Source: Periconia sp. R9002 (lineage: Eukaryota; Ascomycota; Dothideomycetes; Pleosporales; Periconiaceae). From it: a stretch of 64,000 nucleotides of DNA. Below the pieces are notes generated by a model. The model saw only the letters and a list, made by a program, of their open reading frames with translations, had not been told where the DNA came from and searched no databases. The stretch covers positions 1 to 64,000 of the forward strand of contig JAMAHW010000036.1 of assembly GCA_023627715.1 (NCBI GenBank), written 5' to 3'. Shown here piece by piece: positions 1 to 29,996 of this stretch. Positions within the stretch are counted from its first letter, which is position 1; each line of letters starts with the position of its first letter. Position numbers and translations under genes: made by a program.

Positions 1-76
1 GTGCCACTCATGGTAATTATCAAAACTACACTCACCATGAGTGCCAAGAGTAATTCTGTGAGGCACAGCCGTAACA
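1..76 (+). repeat. Nearly unmutated copy of terminal repeat, with hairpin
   Basis: This copy keeps a balanced base composition while the DNA immediately to its right is RIP-mutated. Positions 5-14 and 34-43 are a perfect 10-nt inverted pair (CACTCATGGT and ACCATGAGTG), so the strand can fold into a hairpin with a 19-nt loop. It is directly repeated at 2587-2662. It may be part of an LTR or terminal repeat continuing to the left of the window. Confidence 0.7.
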
Positions 77-2586
77 ATTACGCTATATAATAGTTTAACT
101 TTTTTTAATATTTTAGTATTTTACTAGTTAAAAGCTTTTTTTATATTAAGTATTTTTATACTAATACTAAATATATTCTCCTTATTTAGTATTATAGTAA
201 CTACGTTTATATTAACGCTATTTATAGTAATAATATATAATAAGCTAAAAGAAGTATATATATTAGAGTAATAAATATAGAAAACGTATATATATAGTAT
301 ATTTAATATAACTATAAAATAATTAAAGTATCTTATTTTAATAGTAAAGTAAACGCTAAGCTTAAAGTAAGCTAAATAAAAGTTTTAAACTATTTCTAGT
401 ATACTAAAAATAATAAACTACTAAGCTACCTATTTAATTTATATAAGTAAAAAAGTTACCTCTATAACTTTTTTATTTAAATATATAGTTTAATATATTA
501 TATATTTAGTAGTTATATTTCTTTTTTTTTACTATTTTATATATATACTTACGTCTATAATTAAAAACCCTTTTTTTATTAGAAATAGTATATAAAAGTA
601 GAGATACCTTTAAAATAATATAAAGAACTTTTTAGCTATAGTAATACTTTAAAAAAACTTTAGATAGAAATAAAACTTTTTTTAAATACTTTTAGGTCCG
701 CTCTTTTATATAAAGTAGTAAATAATTTTATTAGTAAAAGTTATTATACTCTTTATAAAATTATTATATATAAAAAACTATAAAGTTACTATATTTTATT
801 TATAAGAAAAAAGCTAATATTATAAAATAGTAAGAAAGATAGTATTTTAGTTCTTTATCTTATTAGAAATAATTATTTATACGTAAATCTATTATTAATA
901 AACTACTTATATATAATATCTCTCTATATATACTTTAAAATTATATAATTTAGAAAGCCTAACTTTTTAACTACCTAACCTATAAGATATTAACTTTAAT
1001 TTAATACCCCTACTTTCTATATTATATATATAACTTAATACTATAACTATCTTACTTTTTCTATAAATAATGCTAAAAAATAATACTAAATTAATAATAC
1101 TCTATAGTAGTTTTACTTACTTATATCTTTTATATACTAGTATAACTCTATTAGTAATACTATTATATAATAGAGGTTATATAAAGACCCTAGATAGATA
1201 TAAGTAGAATAATAAGTTATCTACTATAATCTATAAGTTAAGCCTATTACTCTATTAAAGTTATATAGAGTATTTATAAATAGAACTAAGATATAGTACT
1301 CTTTATAAAATATTATTCTACTAAAGTATAAAGTTTATAATAATATTAAATAGTTAGTCTCTAACTAGTATACTATAGGGGAGGAATTTCTTATTATAAA
1401 GAGCGTTTAATTACTTATAAAAAATTAGGGTATAGTTCTAAAGTATTATAAAGAGCTAAATTAGTAGACTATATACGCTAAACTTTATTACTAGTATAAA
1501 GTATATATATAATAGGTACTCTACTCTAACTTTACTAATAAGTAGTATTATAGCTTTTTATAAATATCTATATATATTTAGGGTCTCTTATAGCATTCTA
1601 TATATACTTCTAAAAAAATATTATAGTATAGAATAGCTCTTTAACTAGCGTTTAAAAAGTTCTATTAATATAAACTAAATATATATAAAAAGTAGTAAAT
1701 ATATAAGTAGATATTAATAAAGTAGATATAATAAGAGTAAAATTAGAGTATAGTAAAGATTTATTTTAGAAGTACTTTTTATATTATAGTACTAGTAGGT
1801 AAGTAAAAGTATTAAGAGAAACCTATATAATTACCTCCTATTACTAGAATTTATATTAAGAGAAGCAGCTCTAGAATAAATAGCTACTATAATCTTTCTT
1901 TTTCTTAGTTTTAATCTATATATAAAGTATAGTGTACTATTACTATTAGGTAATAATTATAGTAATTATAGCGTATCTATTTATATTTTATAAAGGTTAT
2001 TTTTACTATTAATTTTTATACTTATATATTACGTTTTTATTTATATTTTTTATCTATTTTTAATTTCTATTAGTGTTTCCCTTATAATATATAACTATAC
2101 TTATATAATATAACTATTATAATTTTTTATTATCCTCTCTTTTTCTAGTACTTTATCTCTATTATAAGATTAAGTTATACTAAAGATATTTATACTTAAG
2201 TTATCTATTATTAGAGTCCTACTTAGGCCTTAAAGTAGGATACTAAGTAATACGCAAAAGGAGTAAATAGAAGTATAATATTATAAAATAGTAGTAGAGT
2301 ATATAACTATTAATAAGTATAATATAATAGATTCTAAATAATAGATATTAAAAGTAGGGTAGCTCTTTAGTTAAAAGATTAAATTAACGATAAAGACTAT
2401 CTAAGGAGTATAATATATGCTTACTATATACTAAAAGAATTCCTATACTCTATTACTCTATAGCTCTATAGCTCTATTTATATAAAGATAGTAGAGCGTA
2501 GAGTTATAGAGCTATTACGTAATCTTTTATTACGTATTTATATTATAGTCCGCTTTAGGTCTAAGATCCTAGTCTCTATCTATATA

Positions 2587-2662
2587 ATACTACTTATAGT
2601 TATTATTAAAATTACACTTACTATAAGTGCTAAGAGTAATTCTATAAGGTATAGCTGTAACA
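2587..2662 (+). repeat. RIP-mutated direct repeat of positions 1-76
   Basis: It aligns without gaps to positions 1-76. Nearly every difference is C in the first copy to T here, or G to A; I count one clear transversion. The hairpin arms are largely kept. The spacing of about 2.6 kb would suit a small or deleted element flanked by direct repeats. Confidence 0.7.
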
Positions 2663-3232
2663 TCTATACTATTTATACTTTAGAGTATATTATTAGCTTT
2701 TATTATTTTATTATATTTCTTATTTATATTTACTTTATAGCTTATATTTACTACGCGTTTTCTCTATATATTATATTTTATATTAGGTAGCTTACGCTAT
2801 TTATAATAGCCTTTTATTTTATTCTATTATATAAGAAATATTTTAAAATTACGTTTTATAGCTAGGTTTTACCTTTACTAGCTAATTTTAACCTATGCAA
2901 AATTAGATTTTATATAGGTTGAAATATTACTTTCCCCCTTAGAAGGTTACATTTACCTTAATCCATCTATTAGTGATGGTATTGATTACATTACATGGCA
3001 TTACGTTACCTACACACTTGCATGACACATGTTTTGGTACACGCGTACGCTTGGCTTACAGCATCGATTGATGGCCCAAGGTGGCTCGTGCGTGCGACGG
3101 CGGCAAGCGTAGCCGACAAAGTTCTGGCACGGTAGGTAGGTAGGTAGGTAGGTATCTGTTGGTGCATCAAATGAACCCTCACCCATTCCGTGCACCTCCA
3201 TCACCAAGACCACACCCATAAAAAAACCTACC
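2663..3232. other. Junction of A/T-rich block and gene-bearing DNA
   Basis: The A/T-rich sequence continues to about 2,940 and then gives way to ordinary composition. The stretch ends in the promoter of the prefoldin gene and carries a GGTA tandem repeat at 3131-3154. I see no gene in it. Confidence 0.6.
3131..3154 (+). repeat. (GGTA)n microsatellite
   Basis: Six consecutive GGTA units lie about 80 nt upstream of the prefoldin start codon. Shorter GGTA/TACC runs recur in other intergenic regions of this window. Confidence 0.9.
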
Positions 3233-29116: not shown

Positions 29117-29996
29117 ATGCAGTACAGATTGGTCTCGGCTATTGCCGCTGGCACTCTCTTCGCCAACGTCAACAGCCTGCCCGTTGTAAGTGATTCCTTC
29201 CATGTCTTGACGGTGACTTTGTGCTAATACGATGGGAATATAGTCCACCACGGTCTCCGGTCCGGTAGACAGCATTCAATTGGGGTCACCTTCGACCGAG
29301 ATCACATGGGGCAAAGAAAAGCGCGATCCCACACCTCCGGACTCATTTTGGCTGGGGAAGCCGACATCGACCATTATATGGAGCAAAGAAAAGCGCGAGG
29401 TCACTCGTCCTGACACCTTCTGGCTCGGTAAACCTACTACAACAGTGACATGGAGCAAGGAGAGACGCGACCAGACTCTCCCAGAAGACGACATCCAACT
29501 CGGCCAGCCCTCCACCGAGATTACCTGGGGTAAGCGTGAACAGGCACAATCCCCTCCTGACAGCATTCAGCTAGGTCCGCCGTCAACGGAGATTACCTGG
29601 GGGAAGCGCGATAAAGCACCATCACCTCCTGATTCTATCGACCTTGGCCCTCCCTCCTCAGAGATTATATGGAGCAAACGCGACCAGGCACAGTCTCCCC
29701 CCGATAGCATTCACCTAGGCCCTCCTTCAACAGAGATTATCTGGAGCAAGAAGCGTGAGCAAGCGACGTCCCCGCCCACCGACACCATCGGATTAGGTCC
29801 TCCTTCCACAGAGATCATCTGGAGCAAGCAAGCCCGAGGCGAGCACCCGCTTCCACCCAACAAGATTGAACTCGGTACGCCATCGACAGAGATTAGTTGG
29901 GATAAGCGTGAGGATGCACAGACACAGTCCCCGCCCGATGACTCTATCCAACTTGGTGAACCATCGACCGAGATCATTTGGAGCAAGAAGGAGTAG
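29117..29996 (+). CDS. Secreted ten-repeat precursor with dibasic (Kex2-type) sites
   Basis: Exons 29117-29185 and 29244-29996 encode 273 residues; the 58-nt intron is in phase 0 after LPV. Residues 1-20 are a signal peptide (MQYRLVSAIAAGTLFANVNS). From residue 32 ten units of 19-28 residues follow, each with L-G-x-P, five residues, then W-x-K. Eight of ten units end in a dibasic site (KEKR, KERR, KR or KKR), and units 2-10 open with Asp or Glu. Such a layout is known from kexin-processed fungal precursors: alpha-pheromones, ustiloxin/phomopsin-type RiPP precursors, epichloecyclins and Ustilago Rep1. There is no Cys, unlike most filamentous-ascomycete alpha-pheromones, and no Tyr-based ustiloxin-like core. 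The peptide's function is unknown. No other class member is in the window. Confidence 0.88.
29268..29993 (+). repeat. Ten tandem peptide-coding units
   Basis: Units begin at residues 32, 51, 75, 99, 122, 146, 170, 195, 223 and 246. L-G-x-P and W-x-K are kept in all ten, always with the same spacing. Units 2 and 3 form a variant with SFWLGKP/TFWLGKP in place of SIQLG-type sequence. Unit 8 ends KQARG and unit 10 ends KKE, so neither has a final dibasic site. The DNA units differ at many synonymous positions, so this is not a recent array. Confidence 0.92.

Follow-up and report, generated by a model that had tools for sequence, protein, structure and literature searches.

A predicted Kex2-processed repeat precursor built on an LGxP-x5-W unit, and a longer gene carrying the same unit in one fungal genome

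The window analysed here, a 64,000-nucleotide stretch at C36:1-64000 of a 42.9 Mb genome in 267 contigs, carries a gene whose product is probably a secreted precursor of the type known as Kex2-processed repeat proteins (KEPs). We put the probability of this reading at roughly 0.7. The predicted protein holds ten copies of a unit with an LGxP-x5-W core, and the unit recurs in a second, longer gene of the same genome. The evidence comes from the units and their junctions, from conservation of the predicted cut sites and chain ends in relatives, and from comparison of the two gene families.

The gene lies on the + strand. The earlier note had placed it at 29117..29996, and both the ATG and the end of the TAG were correct; the reading frame, however, closes unless a 58-bp GT-AG intron is taken out, after which it encodes a 273-residue protein (Table 1). 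The hydrophobic N-terminus is signal-like, as judged by eye and by conservation. Its start, MQYR[LF]VS-x2-AAG, is common to P0001 and P0003-P0008, and P0009 begins MEYRLVS. The C-terminus reads EIIWSKKE, and a GPI-anchor hydrophobic tail is absent by eye. Elsewhere in the window, positions 1-3000 at the contig start are very AT-rich (GC 0.18-0.22, against 0.42-0.59 in the rest) and look like a decayed repeat.

Table 1. Features of the precursor gene (positions in the window)
Feature	Position	Strand	Basis
Exon 1, signal-peptide-like N-terminus (MQYRLVSAIAAGTLFANVNSLPV)	29117..29185	+	sequence; MQYR[LF]VS start common to P0001, P0003-P0008
Intron GTAAGT...TATAG, branch-site-like TGCTAATAC	29186..29243	+	sequence; frame closed without its removal
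Exon 2, ten-unit repeat region and stop TAG	29244..29996	+	sequence
Unit 1 core LGSPSTEITWGK, then EKR	29280..29315	+	sequence
Unit 2 core LGKPTSTIIWSK, then EKR	29352..29387	+	sequence
Unit 3 core LGKPTTTVTWSK, then ERR	29424..29459	+	sequence
Unit 4 core LGQPSTEITWGK, then R	29499..29534	+	sequence
Unit 5 core LGPPSTEITWGK, then R	29571..29606	+	sequence
Unit 6 core LGPPSSEIIWSK, then R	29643..29678	+	sequence
Unit 7 core LGPPSTEIIWSK, then KR	29715..29750	+	sequence
Unit 8 core LGPPSTEIIWSK, then QAR, without dibasic site	29793..29828	+	sequence
Unit 9 core LGTPSTEISWDK, then R	29871..29906	+	sequence
Unit 10 core LGEPSTEIIWSK, then KE and stop	29952..29987	+	sequence

All ten units match LGxP-x5-Wx[KR], in agreement with the invariant L-G-x-P and W-x-K described earlier, and the pattern did not arise when the sequence beyond residue 23 was shuffled 2000 times with its composition preserved. 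The conserved part of the unit extends to D-x-I-x-L-G-x-P-[ST]-x-x-[IV]-x-W, with a mean identity of 64% among the units. Eight of the nine junctions are dibasic (six KR, one RR and one KKR), which is the number the earlier note had counted; units 8 and 9 are joined by KQAR only. The acidic residue said to open units 2-10 is present in eight of them, the exception being unit 9, which follows QAR and starts Gly-Glu.

Assuming cleavage at each of the eight dibasic sites and a signal peptide of 20 residues, nine products are predicted, of 28, 22, 22, 21, 22, 22, 22, 49 (units 8 and 9 joined) and 28 residues. Monoisotopic masses computed for them include 2337.112, 2307.127, 2374.144 and 2342.091. 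About eight peptides of 18-23 residues had been proposed; six of the nine fall in that range, and those of 28, 49 and 28 residues lie outside it. As the earlier note had also observed, the products have neither the Cys of most filamentous-ascomycete alpha-pheromones nor Tyr-led cores, since Tyr and Cys are absent from all nine. Mean hydropathy is negative throughout (-0.09 to -1.23), and charge is -1.2 or lower in eight products, so that the set ranges from acidic to near neutral. A pair of Ste13-type dipeptides follows one of the eight dibasic sites in the window protein (DPTP).

The units appear to be old copies under purifying selection on the protein rather than the result of recent tandem expansion, because the invariant residues are spelled with varied codons (six for Leu, four for Pro and three for Gly) and pS exceeds pN (0.82 vs 0.24, raw proportions pooled over 45 unit pairs; pairwise dS was computable in 15 of these). 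At the DNA level, the repeats match at 71-73% in two 72-base arrays.

Pfam placed no family on the precursor above cut-off (only Chromo_2, E 0.00035, which lay below its own cut-off and was discarded), and in nine relatives it gave only a PT disordered repeat, in P0032, which was sub-threshold. Solved structures returned a single chance-level match, and Rfam returned none around the gene. AlphaFold2 models were of low confidence both for exon 2 with eight relatives (mean pLDDT 45.5, strands in most units) and for the long-type protein P0020 with ten relatives (mean pLDDT 34.5, repeat part without strands); both were too weak to serve as fold-search queries.

A search of 5.8 billion proteins yielded 11 short-type relatives, and a nine-row profile search yielded 18, eight of them new. 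Those named belong to Alternaria, Bipolaris, Stemphylium, Patellaria and Lindgomyces. Counting as a unit any Trp with Pro at W-6 and a hydrophobic residue or Thr at W-2, a dibasic site lies within five residues of Trp in 66 of 77 units across 19 short-type relatives. This retention supports the earlier proposal of a kexin-processed multi-peptide precursor, one with no Pfam family above cut-off. In 12 short-type proteins, the window protein included, 64 of 75 dibasic pairs come no more than four residues after Trp; P0006, P0008 and P0009 each have one unit without a site. Asp or Glu stands right after the cut in 54 of 82 short-type places. Ste13-like X-Ala/X-Pro dipeptide pairs occur at 11 of the 82, nine of them in P0010 and P0011.

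Short-type proteins terminate in W-[GS] in 11 of 19 cases and in W-[GS]-K-E in three, and these 14 C-termini are non-independent, comprising seven distinct last-eight-residue endings. Since Kex2 and Kex1 acting on W-[GS]-K-R and W-[GS]-K-E-K-R units would leave just these two ends, W-[GS] and W-[GS]-K-E, the last unit looks as if it were made ready-trimmed. Five of the 19 do not fit (P0001, P0009, P0010, the partial record P0011 and P0044), and the WSKKE of the window protein matches neither form exactly. P0005 and P0009 have extra residues just past the signal peptide, which we infer to be an intron left unspliced, in roughly the position of that of the window gene.

A genome search with a composite of protein pieces led outside the window gene to two matches on C4 (543261-543515, E 3.8e-4; 542424-542627, E 0.009) and one of chance level on C88 (E 0.845). 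The C4 matches fall in a second gene (L015, G000:C4:541761-545015) with a 631-residue open frame and an upstream signal-peptide exon. It encodes W-G-K-R units such as DQITLGPPSATISWGKR with acidic Pro-rich spacers. The DNA pattern P-x3-[IV]-x-W-[GS]-K-R matched the genome 16 times, seven in the C4 gene, three in the window gene and six as singles, against two for the reversed control. Judged by the W-[GS]-K-R pattern, which would miss a gene whose units end otherwise, the genome has two clustered loci with the unit.

Among 7995 candidates sharing most words with the long protein, 25 were relatives (P0012-P0036), in genera that include Periconia, Byssothecium, Melanomma, Kalmusia, Paraphaeosphaeria, Karstenula and Delitschia. 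The named relatives of both repeat-protein families are ascomycetes, most of them Pleosporales, and this genome probably belongs there too. To compare the families, a unit score was trained on 58 distinct short-type units with the Trp and Pro columns omitted, and run on each Trp no closer than 14 residues to the start in the 25 long proteins. The 99th percentile of shuffled proteins was exceeded at 183 of 462 long-type Trp residues, where about 5 were expected, compared with 162 of 14,962 non-Trp anchors. Because of this excess over expectation, the LGxP-x5-W unit is, on sequence grounds, common to the short and long families. An hhalign comparison of the two profiles gave a probability of 99.1%, a value inflated by repeats and Pro-rich composition, and the unit score was preferred.

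The long family differs in how its units are flanked. Of the 183 high-scoring Trp residues, a dibasic site lies within five residues of 96, and another 60 are W-[DE] with no such site; among units with Pro at W-6, a site is present in 107 of 218. In 21 of the 25 long proteins, W-[DEN] units come first and dibasic units after, a count restricted to units with Pro at W-6, with degenerate W-G-K-R units lacking that Pro dropped, and less clean over all Trp units. One such dropped unit is at position 209 of P0016, ahead of a W-D unit at 222. Under free order, and with units of neither sort omitted, the chance of this two-block arrangement ranges from 1/3 to 1/792 per protein. The remaining four (P0031, P0032, P0034 and P0036) lack W-[DEN] units altogether, and two of their records do not begin with Met.

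The earlier note had taken repeats kept without their dibasic sites as a pointer to an uncleaved cell-wall protein. The two families divide on this point: short-type relatives keep the sites, whereas many units of the long paralogues are conserved without one. Because the long family retains the unit in such places, where cutting is unlikely, the idea that it serves in peptides only is weakened.

Other features of the long proteins concern their ends and predicted products. A Cys-rich C-terminus was present in the seven that were read, and 23 of the 25 have eight or more Cys overall. N-terminal pyroglutamate occurs on KEP peptides of Coprinopsis, as described in PMC9769878, and is likely in long-family peptides as well, because Gln is the first residue past the cut in 94 of 174 places. 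In P0015, the C-terminal units at positions 565-640 are framed like yeast alpha-factor, with KR, next EADA or EAEA, and next a peptide ending GGY[LM]SWG, which in two cases has KR after it.

On the processed-precursor reading, the signal peptide would bring the window protein into the secretory pathway, Kex2 would cleave behind each of the eight dibasic sites, and the basic residues would be removed by Kex1. The result would be linear, mostly acidic peptides ending ...[IV]-x-W-[GS] or ...W-[GS]-K-E, which would act extracellularly through their conserved core. The genome has one match to the kexin P-domain. Recognition or signalling by the free peptides is our first choice of function, although at somewhat less than even odds; it is favoured because cut sites, core and trimmed C-terminus are all conserved. 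A hyphal-surface coat comes second, as a tentative possibility, and action directed at a host or competitor seems doubtful. The uncut long-family units suggest that the core matters inside the chain too, and this would also be in keeping with a surface or binding role. According to PMC9769878, Coprinopsis showed no visible phenotype when six kep genes were removed, a warning against expecting a clear one from this precursor.

The surface-coat alternative holds that the units are short modules that form strands and assemble on the wall of the hypha, whether or not they are cut, like the Rep1 repellents of Ustilago. Rep1 has the same architecture of Kex2-separated repeats and is described as yielding amyloid-like surface fibrils (PMC4617103). 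By eye, hydrophobic and polar residues take turns along the core here, and the long paralogues, with uncut units first, cut units after and Cys-rich ends in the seven C-termini read, would suit a coat. Against this, the nine predicted products all have negative hydropathy and eight carry a charge of -1.2 or lower; the models are of low confidence, that of the long type with a strandless repeat part; and the window chain ends WSKKE with no anchor tail by eye. We regard a coat as possible but not probable. An uncleaved secreted repeat protein, with incidental dibasic sites, would account for the many long-type units that lack such a site, and sits poorly with the short type, in which the site is kept in 66 of 77 units, 64 of 75 dibasic pairs come shortly after Trp and the trimmed ends are seen at 14 of 19 C-termini. 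This makes it improbable.

A sexual alpha-pheromone of this lineage would likewise be a multi-copy precursor with Kex2 sites, and the genome has a STE2 receptor gene (G000:C1:1189621-1190506). Also in favour of this reading, DNA patterns, which can miss a diverged pheromone gene, revealed neither a PYG[LM]P[IV]G nor a CxxPGQxC precursor. The exact PYG[LM]P[IV]G pattern had no genome match against two in the control; with two mismatches allowed there were 361 against 393, clusters being judged among the matches listed (the first ~100 places). CxxPGQxC matched 11 times against three, and none of the eight read by eye resembled a multi-copy precursor. Against it, the window products carry neither signature, having no Tyr for PYG[LM]P[IV]G and none of the two conserved Cys of the other type. 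Pleosporales alpha-pheromones, including that of Alternaria brassicicola, carry PYG[LM]P[IV]G as reported in PMC6339444, and other Alternaria species also have the LGxP-x5-W family. Moreover, the units differ from one another (64% mean identity), and the paired Ste13 dipeptides expected after Kex2 sites in Pleosporales pheromones follow just one of eight here, although they are present in the distant P0010 and P0011. A pheromone role for the window precursor is thus unlikely, and we allow it only a slender chance.

Slimmer still is the prospect of a RiPP precursor cyclised by UstYa-type oxidases, the alternative that the earlier note had kept and that we set aside. The KEP architecture would suit it, and the genome has 61 UstYa exon matches in 34 loci. 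However, the nine predicted products offer no Tyr or Cys, and the UstYa (DUF3328) search found no match within the window and hence no adjacent gene. The nearest, C36:70569-70850, is 40.6 kb off, a proximity seen at about 6% of random places, although the loose rule given in PMC7329392 (within 15 genes) could still count it. For the C4 paralogue, the closest UstYa match is 221 kb distant. Pfam searches of 11 open frames at 30-60 kb assigned eight to a family (short-chain dehydrogenase, inositol polyphosphate kinase, LRR, UNC-45, two zinc-finger frames, aldo-keto reductase and ceramidase), none of them a RiPP enzyme. A RiPP cluster was rejected on the UstYa genome search, a by-eye reading of the open frames in the 19.8 kb past the window and the chance estimate. 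The UstYa gene itself (G000:C36:70521-71400) has FAD oxidoreductase-like and stomatin-like neighbours by eye, and no adjoining RiPP precursor was seen.

Returning to the processed-precursor reading, its broadest extension is unlikely to hold. D-x-I-x-L-G-x-P-x5-W would then be an old fungal peptide code used in two precursor families of one genome, the short one almost wholly cut and the long one with an uncut block ahead of its cut units. It would represent a Dothideomycetes peptide-signal system distinct from mating pheromones, with a fixed ligand and a processed/unprocessed pair, or else the Ste2 ligand in this lineage. The precursor provides a small defined peptide set with computed masses to look for, testable by gene removal, and the long family a natural contrast of cut and uncut copies of one unit.

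Several described systems share this architecture. Rsp1 of Ustilago maydis, at 260 residues close in length to the window protein, has eleven imperfect and hydrophilic repeats, each 18 or 21 residues long, with putative Kex2 motifs between them; it is from a basidiomycete, and we liken it to the window precursor by description only. PMC4617103 gives its function as unknown and reports no virulence change upon single deletion. From the same source, Rep1 releases ten or so peptides per precursor via Kex2, but these are amphipathic, 35-53 residues long and fibril-forming, whereas the window products are mostly shorter and of negative hydropathy. Alpha-pheromone precursors of Pleosporales, as presented in PMC6339444, are multi-copy Kex2 precursors from the same fungal order, but their core is absent from the window products. 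Dikaritin RiPP precursors (ustiloxin and phomopsin) also have Kex2-split repeats, but the window products have no Tyr core and no UstYa neighbour was found.

KEPs as described in PMC6339444 and PMC7329392 are the closest match, being secreted precursors with tandem near-identical motifs and Kex2 sites between them. The window protein repeats such a motif in ten of ten units, with a dibasic site at eight of nine junctions. It is set apart by its motif: D-x-I-x-L-G-x-P-x5-W is not among the main-text motifs compared (sections 8 and 10 of PMC6339444; section 6 of PMC7329392). Papers containing the strings SWGKR, TWGKR, IWSKR, STEIIW or SISWGK deal with no fungal precursor, judging by titles and abstract openings, and no title or abstract pointed to the LGxP-x5-W core. 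One survey lists 838 KEP types, of which type G-9, with 48 members in 14 genera including Alternaria, Bipolaris and Stemphylium and none near DUF3328, may contain the LGxP-x5-W family (PMC7329392). The KEP class is therefore already known, and we call the LGxP-x5-W family new within it by the main-text motif lists; the second, longer gene with the same unit in this genome, with relatives across Pleosporales, is new here. Fungal KEPs are common, and for most of them no function is known; here one core can be traced across many genera and two gene architectures.
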